Source of the DNA: Pontibacter deserti
Lineage (GTDB): Bacteria > Bacteroidota > Bacteroidia > Cytophagales > Hymenobacteraceae
Assembly: GCF_023630255.1 (NCBI RefSeq)
Contig: NZ_JALPRS010000001.1
Coordinates: forward strand, 1,736,001-1,800,000
Length of the DNA stretch: 64,000 nt
Reading direction: 5' to 3'
The position numbers and the translations under genes were made by a program. Position 1 is the stretch's first letter. Every line of letters starts with the position of its first letter. Shown piece after piece: positions 12,850-18,600 of this stretch. The notes below the pieces were generated by a model, which saw only the letters and a program-made list of their open reading frames with translations, ran no database searches and was not told where the DNA came from.

Positions 12850-13392
12850 CTATTTAGCAGGTTTTTCTATGATCAGGTTATGGTTGGTATAGATGCAGAT
12901 ATCAGCAGCAATATTGAGGGCTTCGCGCACCATTTCTTCTGCTGATAAATGCGGGGCATGTTTTTGCAAAGCCAGCGCTGCAGCGTGTGCATACATACTT
13001 CCCGAGCCTATAGCTGCGATCTGGTTATCAGGCTCCAGCACATCGCCTGTACCTGATATAATCAGTAATTCGTCTTTGTTGGCTACCACCATCATGGCTT
13101 CGAGTTTGCGCAGGTACTGGTCTTTACGCCAGTCTTTGGCCAGCTCTATGGCAGCGCGTTTCATGTTGTGCTGGTAGGCGTTTAGTTTCTCCTCGAAGCG
13201 TTCCAGTAAGGTAAAGGCATCGGCGGTGGAGCCGGCAAAACCGGTTACTACTTTACCATCCAGCAGCTTTCGTATTTTCTTAACGTTGCTTTTGGCGATA
13301 TGCTTGTCCATGGTGGCCTGGCCGTCGGCACCCAGTGCTACCTCGCCGTTATGGTAAATACCTAAAACAGTGGTCGATCTTATCTTGGTCAT
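12850..13392 (-). CDS. hslV: HslV (ClpQ) protease subunit of the HslUV complex
   Basis: 180 aa. The N-terminus MTKIRS precedes the pair TTVLGIYHNGEVALGADGQ, so the active-site N-terminal threonine (T7) would be exposed after removal of a six-residue leader. GKVVTGFAGSTADAFTLLERFE and the C-terminal CIYTNHNLIIE are family-typical. HslV forms a double hexameric peptidase chamber with the ATPase HslU. No hslU is adjacent; the left neighbour is the DHS homologue and the right is the cassette array. Family assignment is firm. Confidence 0.93.
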   Translation of the reverse strand: MTKIRSTTVLGIYHNGEVALGADGQATMDKHIAKSNVKKIRKLLDGKVVTGFAGSTADAFTLLERFEEKLNAYQHNMKRAAIELAKDWRKDQYLRKLEAMMVVANKDELLIISGTGDVLEPDNQIAAIGSGSMYAHAAALALQKHAPHLSAEEMVREALNIAADICIYTNHNLIIEKPAK

Positions 13393-13736: not shown

Positions 13737-13817
13737 ATTTAACATAAAGTTTATTTCGTTTAGCCGCCGTATTTGGGTGTATAAACGTAATAAACTCCGT
13801 TTATACAGTAGTTGGGC
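13737..13817 (+). other. Possible degenerate attC-like site at the left end of the array
   Basis: ATTTAAC at 13737 fits the RYYYAAC core and GTTGGGC at 13811 fits GTTRRRY, 81 bases end to end. A 10-bp inverted repeat (TGTATAAACG / CGTTTATACA) lies just before the right core, but the left arm of an ordinary attC stem is unclear. The right core is well supported because it matches the end of the first cassette; the left core is weak. Confidence 0.4.
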
Positions 13818-13837
13818 AACAAATCAAAACAAGATAA

Positions 13838-14842
13838 ATGAAACAAACATTACTGCTCTTTTTCCTTCCATTACTGTTTTGCTTTCATATCGCAGCCCAA
13901 GCTAAGAAACCAGAGGACTTCGGCTTCAGGCACCTGCAAACTCTTTACAAGCAGGATACGGTGGATATTCTGTTACTGTCGAAAAGAGGTGAAGAAGAGA
14001 TGGAGAAGCCGCTGTTCCTCTTCATCCAAGGGTCGCTCCCAAAGCCGCTCATCAAGCTTCAGGAGAATGGAAAGCCATACATGGTGTTCCCTTTTGAACC
14101 GGGAATTCTATTGAATGATTATCACCTTGCCATCATCAGTAAACCGTACGTGCCGCTTATCCGTGAGGCGAGCGAGTTGCGGAGGGATATGGCTTACGTG
14201 GACCCTGAAATCAACAGCTTCCCTGAGAAATACATCAAGCGGGATAACCTGTACTACTATGCCAACAGAAATAAGCAAGCTATAAAATTCCTGAAGAAGC
14301 AAAACTGGATAAGCGATAAAGAAGTAGTTGTTGCTGGTCACTCAGAGGGCGCTGCCGTGGCAGCTAAGCTAGCGGAGCTGTCAAAGGACGTAACGCGCCT
14401 CATTTTTGCAAGCACCAACCCTTTCGGGAGAATGATTACCATCATCTCGCAGATGAGGCAACAAGACGACTCATTGGGAACGGCAACAGAGAAGCAGTTT
14501 AAGTTGTGGCAAGAGCTGATCAACGACACAGAGAATAATCAGGTTCAGGGAGAGACTACATTCAAATCCATTTACAGCTTCTCCAAGCCACCTATAAATT
14601 CATTGCGCAAGCTGAAGATTCCTGTGCTGGTAGCTTATGGCACTGAAGACATCGCTGCGCCTTTTTTCGATTACATGCACCTAGAGGCCATTCGTAATAA
14701 AAAGAAGAACTTCACTTTCTTGCCCTATGTAGGCAGGGAGCATAACTTCTTCGGCTTGGACGAGAGTGGAAAGGTGAACTATGACGACTTCGGGTGGGAT
14801 AGCGTGGCACAGGACTGGAAGGAGTGGCTTAAAAAGAAATAA
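13838..14842 (+). CDS. Secreted alpha/beta hydrolase (cassette 1)
   Basis: 334 aa with an N-terminal signal peptide (KQTLLLFFLPLLFCFHIAAQA). The nucleophile elbow is VVVAGHSEGAAVA (G-H-S-E-G); the acid is probably the Asp in VAYGTEDIAAP and the base the His in GREHNFFG, all in the right order for a serine hydrolase. The N-terminal third (VDILLLSKRGEEEMEKPLF) has the usual strand pattern. Substrate unknown. It starts 20 bases after the left core and its stop is 6 bases before the attC-like site. None of the words AGTATA, TATACT, ACTATA or TATAGT, frequent elsewhere in the window, occurs in it, which fits foreign origin. Confidence 0.85.
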   Translation: MKQTLLLFFLPLLFCFHIAAQAKKPEDFGFRHLQTLYKQDTVDILLLSKRGEEEMEKPLFLFIQGSLPKPLIKLQENGKPYMVFPFEPGILLNDYHLAIISKPYVPLIREASELRRDMAYVDPEINSFPEKYIKRDNLYYYANRNKQAIKFLKKQNWISDKEVVVAGHSEGAAVAAKLAELSKDVTRLIFASTNPFGRMITIISQMRQQDDSLGTATEKQFKLWQELINDTENNQVQGETTFKSIYSFSKPPINSLRKLKIPVLVAYGTEDIAAPFFDYMHLEAIRNKKKNFTFLPYVGREHNFFGLDESGKVNYDDFGWDSVAQDWKEWLKKK

Positions 14843-14848
14843 TCCATT

Positions 14849-14913
14849 GCCCAACAAGGTGCAGCCTTAACCCTTGCTACGCTACGGGCTTCGGCTGCAC
14901 GAACACGTTAGAC
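14849..14913 (+). other. attC-like recombination site 1
   Basis: 65 bases: left core GCCCAAC (14849-14855), right core GTTAGAC (14907-14913). Between them GTGCAGCC pairs with GGCTGCAC, and the central part (TTGCTACGCTACGGGCTTCG) gives a folded middle. Both cores fit the RYYYAAC / GTTRRRY consensus. The best of the sites. Confidence 0.8.
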
Positions 14914-14937
14914 TTAATTACAACTATAAAAAAGCTT

Positions 14938-15531
14938 ATGAAAACACTTTATACCTTGTTTACGTCAATGTGCCTCTTGTTAGCAGTACAGGCGAACGGT
15001 CAGACCTATCATGAACAGCATGCAGAATGCTCCGTGGCTTTCAAAAACAAAGAAAGTCTAACCCCAGGATTAGTGGCAGACTTCAACGAATGTATGGTGG
15101 GAGCAGACGCTCCTAATTTCATTGTAACTACCTTGGATGGGGCAGAAATTGAACTGGCTAAGCTAAAGGGGAAAGTGGTAGTGCTTAATTTCTGGTCAAC
15201 TACGTGCAAGCCTTGCATAGAGGAAATGCCTGCCTTAAATGAGTTGGTACGCTTCTACAAGGACGCAAACGTAATATTCCTTTCATTAGCACCTGAAAAT
15301 GCAGAAACCCTTGAAAAATTCTTTGTTAGATTTCCATTTGACTACACTCCAGCAGCCGACGCGGAGAAAGTAAAATCAGAAATTTTCAAACTCCAAACTA
15401 TTGTACCTTACTCTGTAATCATTGACAAGGAAGGTAAGATTAAGAAAATGTGGTTTGGTTCGTTTCCCGGACGGGAGCATATATTTAGCCTTTATACCCC
15501 TCTTATTGACGAGTGCTTGGCAAAAAGATAG
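14938..15531 (+). CDS. TlpA-like periplasmic thioredoxin-fold protein (cassette 2)
   Basis: 197 aa with a signal peptide (LYTLFTSMCLLLAVQANG). After about 45 residues comes a redoxin domain with VVVLNFWSTTCKPCIEEMPA, i.e. a CxxC active site C-K-P-C, and a cis-Pro region in IVPYSVIIDKEG. TlpA/ResA-like proteins reduce or rearrange disulfides in the periplasm, and many Bacteroidota members take part in stress or cytochrome maturation. It carries none of the four AGTATA-type words common elsewhere in the window. Its stop is 9 bases before the next attC-like site. Confidence 0.87.
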   Translation: MKTLYTLFTSMCLLLAVQANGQTYHEQHAECSVAFKNKESLTPGLVADFNECMVGADAPNFIVTTLDGAEIELAKLKGKVVVLNFWSTTCKPCIEEMPALNELVRFYKDANVIFLSLAPENAETLEKFFVRFPFDYTPAADAEKVKSEIFKLQTIVPYSVIIDKEGKIKKMWFGSFPGREHIFSLYTPLIDECLAKR

Positions 15532-15540
15532 AACTACTTA

Positions 15541-15593
15541 GTCTAACAAGACCTATAAGGTAGCTACACCATCTTATAGCAAAGCCGTTACTT
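15541..15593 (+). other. attC-like recombination site 2
   Basis: 53 bases: left core GTCTAAC (15541-15547), right core GTTACTT (15587-15593). CTATAAG pairs perfectly with CTTATAG inside. The right core departs from GTTRRRY, but it equals the reverse complement of the end of the following cassette (AAGTAAC), which is the stronger criterion. The core region shares the pattern CTATAxGGxAGCTACxCC with site 3. Confidence 0.7.
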
Positions 15594-15606
15594 GCAATAA
15601 ATAATT

Positions 15607-16099
15607 ATGAATCCAGATATAGATTGGGTAAAAGAATTGATTAAGGTTTGTGAAAGTAGTACACTTAATAAGACCTTAAGCTGGTTGGGGCAAGTATATA
15701 AGACTGATGTTGACTACAAAAAGGTCCCAATTTATTTCCTCAAGCCAAACAACACACGGATTGATAGAATAATTGTTAATGGAGAAAATGGCAAAATTAG
15801 ATAGTATTGGAATAGAAGGGAACACGTTCTCACTCTCATTCGATTTTCTTCGCGGACTAACTGAAGACTATAAAAGAACTTTTAACACTTATGACCCAAT
15901 TTTGGATGAGCAGTACATGTTCTATCCAGCTAAAATTGAGTTTCCTTTTGTTGCAATTGACAGCTGGATTCCAGAAGAAGAACAAAAAAAGGATTTAGAA
16001 AATATAAGATTCAAAAATGTCAGCTTTTATTTTGGAAAGAATAAAGTCCCATACCATTATAGAGACGGGTGGATTTTAGAAAATCGGCAAATAAAATAA
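15607..16099 (+). pseudogene. Small cassette gene split by a probable frameshift (cassette 3)
   Basis: Two overlapping frames: 15607-15804 (65 codons) and 15773-16099 (108 codons). The first ends IIVNGENGKIR-stop, and the second continues a plausible protein with DSIGIEGNTFSLSFDFLRG; joining them near 15795-15805 by one shift gives a protein of about 160 aa. I do not recognise the family. The second part is rich in aromatic and charged residues (FPFVAIDSWIPEEEQKK). No signal peptide. Alternatives are two genuine overlapping small genes, or one gene needing programmed frameshifting. AT-rich compared with neighbours, as usual for cassettes. Confidence 0.55.
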
Positions 16100-16113
16100 A
16101 ATAAAATTAAAGC

Positions 16114-16166
16114 AAGTAACCACAGCTATACGGCAGCTACGCCACCCCAAAGCCCAGTCGTTGGCA
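16114..16166 (+). other. attC-like recombination site 3
   Basis: 53 bases: left core AAGTAAC (16114-16120), right core GTTGGCA (16160-16166). Internal pairing is weak (GGC with GCC around AGCTAC), but the stretch CTATACGGCAGCTACGCCACC is clearly related to the same part of site 2. The right arm may have lost bases. Confidence 0.6.
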
Positions 16167-16226
16167 GCAAGTATAGCAAACCAAAAGAATAAAAACTTAC
16201 TCGGAATTCTCATAAAACTAAATTGG

Positions 16227-16829
16227 ATGAACAAAATGACGCTGGTAGACGCTAATCAAGCTACAAAAGGCTCTGTAGAAGATTTACAGCACCTAAAAAA
16301 TGCCCAACAGGATATGCGGGAGGCCTACCTGAATGGTTACCCTGGTGTGGTAGTATCCGGTATGGTTTGGCTTATTTCAGCATTTGTAGCCATGTATGTG
16401 TCGCCAGACAAAGCAGTTTGGTCCTTACTTGTTGGAGGCATTTTTATACATCCTGTAAGCATGCTGCTCAATAAAGTTTTGGGAGCTGCTGGTGCACACG
16501 CGCGTAGTAATCCCTTGGGCAAGCTTGCCATGGAGGGAACTGTATTTATGATCATGTGCCTACCGCTGGCATATGGGCTGTCTTTTCAAAAAGTAGAATG
16601 GTTTTTCCAAGGCATGCTCCTCATCATCGGGGGCAGGTATTTGCATTTTGTAACGCTCTACGGTTCCAGGCTTTACTGGGCATTAGGCATCGGATTGGGT
16701 GCAGCAGCCTACCTGTTGTTTAACATGCATGCACCTTCCCATGCTACACTTTTAGTGGGTGCAGCTATGGAAATCTTGTTCGGTCTTGTCATGCTCGTAG
16801 CGATTAGCAGAAGAAGATCGCCATTATAA
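16227..16829 (+). CDS. Small integral membrane protein (cassette 4)
   Basis: About 200 aa from the ATG at 16227; a longer reading from a TTG at 16161 would begin inside the right core of attC-like site 3 and is unlikely. A hydrophilic start (TKGSVEDLQHLKNAQQDMRE) is followed by five or six hydrophobic segments: GVVVSGMVWLISAFVAMYV, SLLVGGIFIHPVSMLL, GTVFMIMCLPLAYGLSF, GMLLIIGGRYLHFV, ALGIGLGAAAYLLF and AAMEILFGLVMLVAI. It resembles small conserved membrane proteins of unknown function found in Bacteroidota (possibly DUF7010; from memory, not checked). None of the four frequent AGTATA-type words occurs in the coding part. Confidence 0.75.
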   Translation: MNKMTLVDANQATKGSVEDLQHLKNAQQDMREAYLNGYPGVVVSGMVWLISAFVAMYVSPDKAVWSLLVGGIFIHPVSMLLNKVLGAAGAHARSNPLGKLAMEGTVFMIMCLPLAYGLSFQKVEWFFQGMLLIIGGRYLHFVTLYGSRLYWALGIGLGAAAYLLFNMHAPSHATLLVGAAMEILFGLVMLVAISRRRSPL

Positions 16830-16855
16830 AGGTAATTGGGCTGCAAGGCAACAGC

Positions 16856-16911
16856 CACCAACAAAATGCATTGTATAGGTTACGCCCACACTATACACTG
16901 GTGCGTTATTC
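16856..16911 (+). other. attC-like recombination site 4
   Basis: 56 bases: left core CACCAAC (16856-16862), right core GTTATTC (16905-16911). TGTATAG (16872-16878) pairs with CTATACA (16891-16897) around GTTACGCC. The left core matches the cassette's own start only at 7 of 9 positions, so this site is less certain than sites 1 and 2. Confidence 0.55.
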
Positions 16912-16936
16912 CTAAAAAGATAACAATCACCTACAC

Positions 16937-17308
16937 ATGAAAATTAGCAGAGAAGAGGTTTTAAGTATAGAAGCCAAACTTATTGAGGCAATAAAATCAA
17001 GTGACATTAAGTTTTTGGATAGTATTCTATATGATGATCTGCTATTTATAGCACCCAACGGACAGGTGATTACGAAACAAATGGACCTGGATTCTCACCG
17101 GGCAGGTGAAATGTTGGTGGAACAACTCTTGCCAACTATTGAAGAAGTGAAAATTGTTGATGATACCGCCATTGTTATAGTTGTTTATGATACAAAGGGA
17201 ACAATGCTGGGCAACCCCATTGAGGGGCAGTTTCGCTATCTCAGGATCTGGAAACAGTTTAGTGACGGGTTAAAAGTAATCGGAGGTAGTTGCTTTAAGT
17301 TAACATAA
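16937..17308 (+). CDS. NTF2-like / DUF4440 family small protein (cassette 5)
   Basis: 123 aa, no signal peptide. The sequence has the shape of the SnoaL/NTF2-like alpha+beta barrel fold: an N-terminal helix (SREEVLSIEAKLIEAIKS), the stretch FLDSILYDDLLFIAPNGQV, then strands ending with FRYLRIWKQFSDGLKVIGG. DUF4440 proteins include isomerase-like and stress-linked members, so no reaction can be assigned. Unlike cassettes 1, 2 and 4 this gene does carry the frequent words AGTATA and TATAGT, so it could be an older or native gene. The right-hand border of the cassette is unclear. Confidence 0.75.
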   Translation: MKISREEVLSIEAKLIEAIKSSDIKFLDSILYDDLLFIAPNGQVITKQMDLDSHRAGEMLVEQLLPTIEEVKIVDDTAIVIVVYDTKGTMLGNPIEGQFRYLRIWKQFSDGLKVIGGSCFKLT

Positions 17309-17351
17309 CGCAGGTTTTCATAAATCTTATTAACCCCTTACCTACAACTCT

Positions 17352-17642
17352 ATGTTAGAAATAAGGCCCATTTGCGAGAACTGCGGCAAAGACTTACCAC
17401 CCGACAGCACAGAAGCTATGATCTGCACGTTTGAGTGTACGTTCTGCGCTGATTGCGTAAATAATGTACTGCATAACGTTTGCCCTAATTGTGGTGGCGG
17501 CCTCGAAAAGCGTCCGGTCCGTCCAGGAGTATTGCTAAAGAAGTACCCTGCTGAAACCGAGAAGTTGCTTAAAACTGTAAACCTTAAAAGTTTCGCTGTT
17601 TTACGTGATAAAAACAAACACATTGAACCCTCTGACAGGTAG
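17352..17642 (+). CDS. DUF1272 zinc-ribbon protein
   Basis: 96 aa. Two treble-clef-like cysteine sets are visible: ICENCGKDLP, ICTFECTFCADCVNNV and VCPNCGGGLEKRPVRP. This cysteine pattern is the DUF1272 family, which probably binds two zinc ions; function unknown. It follows the cassette region by 43 bases and is followed 37 bases later by the DinB-fold gene in the same direction. It may be outside the array. Confidence 0.85.
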   Translation: MLEIRPICENCGKDLPPDSTEAMICTFECTFCADCVNNVLHNVCPNCGGGLEKRPVRPGVLLKKYPAETEKLLKTVNLKSFAVLRDKNKHIEPSDR

Positions 17643-17679
17643 CATTACTTTCTAAAACTAAGATTACAGAACCTAAACT

Positions 17680-18216
17680 ATGGAAATTGAAAACCTTAAA
17701 TACCCGGTGGGCCGTTTTCAGAAGCCCGAGCAGATCTCAGGTGAAATGCTTGCCGGTTTTATTGCTGTAATTTCTGATTTTCCGGGTAAACTGCACAAGG
17801 AAGTACAGCACCTGAATGAGCAGCAACTGGATACCCCCTACCGCCCCGAAGGCTGGACTGTACGGCAAGTTGTAAACCATTGCGCCGATAGCCACATGAA
17901 TGCCTTGATCAGGCATAAACTGGCTCTGACCGAAGATAATCCAACTATAAAACCTTACCACGAAGACCTTTGGGCAGAACTTCCGGACACTAAAACAATG
18001 CCCATAGAACCGGCACTCCATATACTGGATGGTTTACATGCACGCTGGATTGCACTCCTAAAGGGGCTGTCGGAAACAGATTTAAACCGCACTTTTACAC
18101 ACCCTGAACACAACAAGGCCTTTACCCTGGATGAAAGTATAGGCTTATATGCCTGGCACTGCGACCATCACCTGGCACACATCACATCGCTGAAAGAAAG
18201 AAAAGGCTGGACCTGA
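17680..18216 (+). CDS. DinB-fold YfiT/BstA-like putative metal-dependent thiol transferase
   Basis: 178 aa. The starting block ENLKYPVGRFQKP is a hallmark of the YfiT group. Metal-binding histidines occur in VNHCADSHMNALIR and in WHCDHHLAHITSL, the classic three-His site of the DinB/YfiT four-helix bundle. Relatives transfer bacillithiol to electrophiles; whether this organism makes bacillithiol cannot be told here. Followed 24 bases later by the DUF1801 gene. Confidence 0.88.
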   Translation: MEIENLKYPVGRFQKPEQISGEMLAGFIAVISDFPGKLHKEVQHLNEQQLDTPYRPEGWTVRQVVNHCADSHMNALIRHKLALTEDNPTIKPYHEDLWAELPDTKTMPIEPALHILDGLHARWIALLKGLSETDLNRTFTHPEHNKAFTLDESIGLYAWHCDHHLAHITSLKERKGWT

Positions 18217-18240
18217 TACTACTTAACTGTATAACTTTTG

Positions 18241-18600
18241 ATGCACCAGATGAATATACAGAAACCTACCACATTTGAAGCTTATAGTGCTAACTTCCCG
18301 GAAGACATCAGCAAACGCCTGACGCAGTTAAGGGAAACTATAAAAGCTGCTGTGCCTGAGGCAGAAGAGATATTCAGCTACGGCATCCCCGGGTTTAAAG
18401 CCAACGGGAAAAAAGTTTGGTTTGCTGGTTATAAGCAGCACATCGGATTATACCCTATGTACGGCATGGAGGCACTGGAAGCAGAAATAGCTCCCTATAG
18501 AGGGAAGCGCACAAAAGATACGCTTCATTTCCCTCACAATAAGCCATTGCCATTAGACCTAATTGCTAAAATTGTAACGTATAAACTAACAAAACTATAA
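18241..18600 (+). CDS. DUF1801 family (YdhG/iron-chaperone-like) protein
   Basis: About 119 aa; either the ATG at 18241 or that at 18250 starts it (the TTG at 18238 is less likely). FEAYSANFPEDISKRLTQLR, EEIFSYGIPGFKANGKKVWF, AGYKQHIGLYPM and the C-terminal TLHFPHNKPLPLDLIAKIV are the conserved DUF1801 blocks. Members are small cytoplasmic proteins, one of which was described as an iron chaperone in Bacillus. Probably co-transcribed with the upstream YfiT-like gene. Confidence 0.85.
   Translation: MHQMNIQKPTTFEAYSANFPEDISKRLTQLRETIKAAVPEAEEIFSYGIPGFKANGKKVWFAGYKQHIGLYPMYGMEALEAEIAPYRGKRTKDTLHFPHNKPLPLDLIAKIVTYKLTKL

Follow-up and report, generated by a model that had tools for sequence, protein, structure and literature searches.

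The integrase-less genome of Pontibacter deserti very probably harbors about 20 integron-cassette arrays, which appear to be headed by attI-like sites and to have been filled by the integrase type of its relatives. One of these putative arrays lies next to hslV in the window analyzed here, i.e., a stretch of 64,000 nucleotides (positions 1736001 to 1800000 on contig C1 of genome G000; 4.15 Mb in seven contigs, 99.92% complete). This reading is favored because the attC hairpins covary, the two ends of a cassette match, cassettes recur behind different neighbors, and the arrays start at attI-like heads. The cassettes would likely have entered the arrays in single-stranded, folded form through an integrase of the type retained by most relatives. 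This integrase would recombine attI with attC, the latter as a folded bottom strand, between the G and the TT of a GTT triplet (G/TT) and serve the dispersed attI sites in trans. This enzyme may have been lost from the window's genome, or it may have acted before the cassettes arrived there. More weakly, repeats in its N-terminal part are proposed to stand in for the missing IntI-specific insert in the reading of the attC hairpin.

The array of the window starts with an attI-like head on the forward strand (13751 to 13813; crossover in G/TT at 13811 to 13813), which is followed on the same strand by attC1 (type 1, 14848 to 14914; 72.2 bits with model R1, E 1.2e-16, the model matching the bottom strand), attC2 (type 2, 15540 to 15594; 59.8 bits with model R2, E 1.4e-12), attC3 (type 2, 16113 to 16167; R2 49.7 bits, E 4e-10), and attC4 (diverged type 1, 16855 to 16912; R1 17.0 bits, E 0.069). 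The covariance models R1 and R2 were built from 50 type 1 and 24 type 2 attC sites, respectively, none of them from the window, but the hidden Markov model (HMM) search that gathered these rows was seeded partly with the window's attC sites. No further R1 or R2 match below E 1 was found in the window. An earlier note on this DNA, made from the letters alone, had placed attC sites at these positions and had named two outcomes that would speak against it, namely, scores below threshold at all sites and a gene order conserved in all relatives. Three sites score high, and the window's cassettes are absent from all 20 hslV loci examined in relatives.

The note had classified the array as a cluster of attC sites lacking an integron integrase (CALIN). 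By definition this is correct: at least two attC sites lie less than 4 kb apart (three at 49.7 to 72.2 bits within 1.4 kb), and a search of the whole genome revealed no integron integrase, i.e., no protein over the TIGR02249 cut-off and no match of the genus type described below. As judged from its sequence, the array appears to have arisen by integron-type recombination. The label falls short in that the array begins at an attI-like site and is one of many in the genome. The note missed this head, the many other arrays, and the unusual integrase that heads the equivalent arrays of relatives.

Dispersed attI-like heads

The head of the window's array aligns with the attI that adjoins the integrase gene in relatives and matches one of the heads in G049 with 92% identity over 90 bp. 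Another head of the window's genome shows 96% identity over 50 bp to the attI beside the integrase gene of G028. A sequence model for attI-like sites (R3; 30 rows, the window's head among them) recognizes this head at G000:C1:1749753-1749816 and matches 24 sites in the window's genome, 11 to 22 in nine other genomes of the genus, with or without an integrase, and none in four outgroup genomes. A same-strand attC follows within 1.5 kb downstream of 20 of the 22 own-genome sites listed, compared with a random expectation of 0.117 on average and 2 at most (2,000 draws). Ten of these 22 sites are themselves rows of R3; of the 12 that are not, 10 likewise have an attC partner. Seen from the attC side, 40 of 42 own-genome sites are chained to an attI-like head, 42 being a lower bound, as the best candidates alone were scored. 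Each of the 10 own-genome arrays examined, including that of the window, is headed by an attI-like site with one cassette before the first attC; the head of L051 is weak by blastn, yet was found by R3.

Among 17 heads compared, the similarity mostly starts 37 to 63 bases upstream of the crossover in one type and 57 to 97 bases upstream of it in the other, the outer flanks being unrelated; exceptions are L059 and L062, which share 212 bases, and L052 and L059, which share a distant stretch at 68%. Since the heads are alike over a short stretch only and have unrelated flanks, it is a short unit that was dispersed and not a segment. A palindrome of type-specific sequence is located 2 to 7 bases before the crossover in the window's head (TGTATAAACG..CGTTTATACA) and in those of L043, L048, and L056 to L061. 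Palindrome scores of at least 8 are reached by 10 of 30 heads and by 0.8% of shuffles.

Heads of this kind might also be regarded as attG-like secondary targets, i.e., as ordinary genomic sites where cassettes landed. The landing of cassettes at genomic attG sites has been published (Loot 2024), and mostly unrelated flanks would fit this explanation. However, a common stretch, in some cases with a strong palindrome, unites the heads and the attI beside the integrase; the similarity ends beyond this stretch, and the near-identity with the attI of G028 would be unexpected for random landing sites, so that this alternative is unlikely. The arrays resemble attG sites and delta-attI cassettes in that cassettes or attI sequences are found away from the platform; here, in contrast, the arrays are headed by attI-like units of about 40 to 90 bp at positions all over the chromosome. 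Delta-attI cassettes, reported from class 1 and class 2 integrons, have attI fragments downstream of an open reading frame (ORF; PMC12901181). If the dispersed attI sites are true, expression of cassettes would be possible at many places on the chromosome rather than at a single one.

The integrase of the relatives

The same-genus set comprises 50 genomes of the Pontibacter group, the window's own genome included. TIGR02249 matches a protein at an E value of at most 1e-25 in 42 of them, mostly in two pieces (7 to 180 and 241 to 315), but exceeds its cut-off in none. An open frame of at least 465 residues is present in 35 of the 42 matching genomes, and the frames of the remaining 7 are shorter. 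The genus integrase has about 485 residues, i.e., an N-terminal part of about 200 residues and a catalytic half in which R, K, HxxR, H, and Y are conserved (15 aligned sequences), and its C-terminal end reads SPLDxL. Its K and HxxRH motifs are separated by 65 or 66 residues, compared with 71 in XerC and 73 in XerD of the window's genome and 107 in canonical IntI (10 of 10 sequences from the phylum). The alignment with the solved structure of IntI4 (2a3v) breaks at the IntI-specific insert, in agreement with the gap around 180 to 241 between the two TIGR02249 pieces. As it lacks the additional IntI domain, the system of the genus is not classed as a canonical integron.

The IntI-specific insert has been described as necessary for integron recombination (PMC9668308). 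For a subgroup of integron-like tyrosine recombinases it is reported as not fully conserved, yet essential (PMC8138268); the accessible part of that source states no link of the subgroup to attC. Published surveys relied on the extra domain to recognize integron integrases (PMC2426708 and PMC9668308), and systems such as the present one would therefore probably be recorded as arrays without an integrase or be overlooked. Among the 120 listed of 7982 public matches, the names are tyrosine-type recombinase, integrase, and XerD, with a few hypothetical proteins. Should the genus integrase prove active, folded attC could be recombined without the additional domain, and the structural basis of hairpin recognition would become directly testable.

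The integrase is closely associated with attI and attC. In draft assemblies, with arrays at contig ends, 22 integrase frames were listed, 17 of which remained after removal of overlapping loci; 13 of these have same-strand attC downstream and none has attC upstream, and one locus of this set, L043, has attC on the opposite strand. A scan of named genomes yielded 80 loci, of which 44 from Hymenobacteraceae (Pontibacter, Rufibacter, Adhaeribacter, and Botryobacter) were analyzed, while L190 and 35 more distant loci were excluded; these loci overlap the same-genus set and partly supply model rows, and the sets are thus not independent. An attI-like site is found 135 to 161 bp past the integrase stop in 40 of the 41 loci with at least 200 bp downstream, and at least one attC is present in 27 of 32 loci with at least 1 kb. 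Around these 44 integrases, 97 attC sites were found, all of them downstream and on the strand of the integrase, i.e., the integrase is read in the direction of the cassettes. Integrons with this arrangement are already known. The canonical integron has its integrase gene oriented opposite to the cassettes (PMC11551772).

Compared with sedentary chromosomal integrons, the genus thus shares hairpin attC ending in AAC and GTT, G/TT junctions, an attI near the integrase, and arrays of one orientation, but differs in the missing insert, about 200 extra N-terminal residues, the common direction of integrase and cassettes, and 11 to 24 attI-like sites per genome (10 genomes). What surprises most is that one genome has so many attI-like sites and that the integrase lacks the insert. 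Both features appear to be new; no description of such a system was found in the open literature. Tentatively, and with rather more doubt than confidence, the genus could be pictured as having a distributed integron, in which the whole chromosome would be the platform, with 11 to 24 attI docking sites holding few cassettes each, an integrase acting in trans without the IntI domain, and attC being read by paired N-terminal XPB-like distortion-sensing domains.

A gene of about 125 codons is divergently oriented just upstream of the integrase (L020:375-758, L021:344-730, L029:338-715, L101, and L102) and is a possible partner or regulator; the copy in L029 is Cys-rich and weakly DUF2116-like (E 0.0017). 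In the wider phylum, a close relative of the integrase (E of at most 1e-50) occurs in 115 of 395 genomes, 54 of which fall into the class or order of the window's genome. Of 37 loci with such related integrases, 13 contain a total of 29 attC-like pairs with matching cassette ends downstream of the gene, while none occurs in 249 kb of upstream sequence or in shuffled sequence; where the pairs are strong (eight loci), most sites have a length of 119 to 124 bases. Related integrases of other Bacteroidota (L129, L139, L190, L209 from Flavobacterium lotistagni, and others) are accompanied by arrays whose attC-like sites measure about 120 bases and whose cassette ends match.

An ordinary CALIN, i.e., a fragment of a canonical integron that recently lost a normal IntI and has no special organization, would satisfy the same definition, and canonical IntI exceeds the cut-off in 105 of the 395 sampled phylum genomes. 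Nevertheless, G086 is the only one from the window's class among those listed, not one of the 50 same-genus genomes is included, and the arrays of the genus are headed by another integrase and by dispersed attI-like sites, which renders this origin quite improbable. With CALIN elements in the sense of IntegronFinder the own arrays share the clustered attC without an integrase, but they have an attI-like head and occur at many places in the genome.

It is very unlikely that the host recombinases XerC and XerD move the cassettes and that a dedicated integrase is not needed. The window's genome encodes XerC- and XerD-like proteins and still has at least 42 attC sites. The catalytic half of the genus integrase aligns full-length to XerA/Xer proteins without the IntI insert (NF040815, 210.5 with a cut-off of 220). 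In contrast to XerA/Xer, the genus integrase is linked to attI and attC arrays and ends in SPLDxL; the arrays of the relatives adjoin this dedicated enzyme, always downstream. Moreover, three genomes from another genus of the same family, which lack that enzyme and are assumed to have Xer recombinases, gave no R1 match; they belong to a set of 14 other genomes, all without an R1 match in this search.

attC hairpins, cassette ends, and spread

An HMM search over 36 loci of relatives and the window retrieved 163 attC sites from 28 loci plus the window, including a few duplicates from overlapping loci. Type 1 sites have about 67 bases and type 2 sites about 56. In the stems of 50 type 1 sites, 93.7% of the cells are paired, compared with 78.7% after shuffling; the covariation score is 0.425 versus 0.172, and none of 500 shuffles reaches 0.425. 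Sliding the structures along the sites lowers the pairing to 21 to 37%. Bottom-strand G-T cells outnumber A-C cells by 83 to 20 in A3 (26 to 8 if the outermost pair and a constant wobble pair are excluded) and by 34 to 1 in A4, in a count biased toward the bottom strand, on which the structures had been predicted. The wobble pairs favor the bottom strand, the one used by canonical attC. The sites accordingly possess an inverse core, a core, and a hairpin whose bottom-strand use is suggested by sequence alone.

In the window, the first core of each cassette pairs with the closing inverse core of the same cassette, as expected for insertion from circles: GTTGGGC/GCCCAAC in cassette 1, GTTAGAC/GTCTAAC in cassette 2, GTTACTTGC/GCAAGTAAC in cassette 3, and GTTGGCAGC/GCCACCAAC (7 of 9 bases) in cassette 4. 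This signature, already recognized in the earlier note, holds throughout the genus. For each cassette, the six bases outside its first core were set against their counterparts in the closing site, after removal of 13 of the 163 sites in which AAC and GTT were not clearly recognizable. The window and 14 loci supplied 120 pairs of adjacent sites, one of them counted twice (L022 inside L044); 4.75 of 6 bases agree on average, versus 2.06 in random pairs and 2.21 within one site, and none of 5,000 permutations reaches 4.75. Five or six bases agree in 94 of the 120 pairs. The core-to-core distance has a median of 576 bases (109 cassettes), and the longest ORF is sense in 105 and antisense in 3 of the 108 cassettes with an ORF of at least 60 residues. 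Array orientation is uniform in every locus of the HMM search except L043.

Individual cassettes recur in other contexts. Copies of cassette 1 are 91% identical in G032 and 90% identical in G022, where they are preceded by an attI-like site of another kind than in the window and by an attC, respectively. The copies agree from GTTGGGCA on, i.e., the homology starts at G/TT, whereas upstream the neighbor in G022 is unlike that of the window and G032 aligns over only about 13 bases of the shared attI tail. An 85% identical copy of cassette 4 in G049 is located behind a different attC. R1 matches all 50 same-genus genomes with 12 to 70 sites per genome. Dispersal over all these genomes is also what REP-like intergenic repeats without a role in recombination would show, but this explanation is scarcely credible in view of the core matching within cassettes, the cassette-precise homology, the single orientation per array apart from L043, and the predominance of sense ORFs.

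Several observations weigh against the proposed attI-headed arrays and their filling by the relatives' integrase. The window's genome has no integrase of this kind, and the profile of the genus integrase detects only Xer-like and phage-type recombinases there; no movement is therefore expected unless a matching integrase comes from outside. The missing IntI-specific insert could mean a different reaction. The pairing covers 22 of the 24 R3 matches, and 2 of these 22 as well as 2 of the 42 attC sites are unpaired. No attC was detected for 4 of the 17 distinct integrase frames, which have short flanks, and for 5 of the 32 loci with at least 1 kb downstream, and L043 carries attC on both strands. 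In the window, attC4 is weak, and a closing attC of the DUF4440 unit behind it was not detected with R1 or R2. Finally, the R1 search of the 14 outgroup genomes overlooks weak sites: applied to loci of five other Bacteroidota genomes, R1 yielded 11 hits of 20 to 39 bits, G125 and G160 being among the 14 seemingly empty genomes.

Gene content and neighborhood

All cassettes are located on the forward strand. Cassette 1 (13812 to 14907) encodes an alpha/beta hydrolase-like protein (ORF 13838 to 14842; PF01738 over the cut-off) and cassette 2 (14908 to 15587) a TlpA/ResA-like thiol-disulfide oxidoreductase (ORF 14938 to 15531; PF00578, 4e-21; NCBIfam ResA below the cut-off). The two small overlapping ORFs of cassette 3 (15588 to 16160; 15607 to 15804 and 15791 to 16099) have no assigned function, with no Pfam or NCBIfam family over the cut-off and no PADLOC match. 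Cassette 4 (16161 to 16905) encodes a DUF7010 protein (ORF 16227 to 16829; PF22765, 1e-34), and a possible cassette 5 (16906 to 17308) a DUF4440 protein (ORF 16937 to 17308; PF14534, 5e-22). Genes for DUF1272, DinB-like, and DUF1801 proteins (17352 to 18600) lie between the array and DUF922; they are unmatched in the 20 hslV loci of relatives, and no attC was found among them with R1 or R2.

On the other side, the array is flanked by hslV (12850 to 13392, reverse strand; Pfam Proteasome), which has a DNA match in all 50 same-genus genomes and served as the synteny anchor. The 20 hslV loci of relatives contain DUF922 in 7 cases and pdhC in 14. In two of them, G048:C3:1-4466 (L101) and G030:C1:1-5702 (L102), the integrase gene is located 1.6 to 2.7 kb past hslV, in the same neighborhood and orientation as the window's array, which may thus be a platform that lost its integrase beside hslV.

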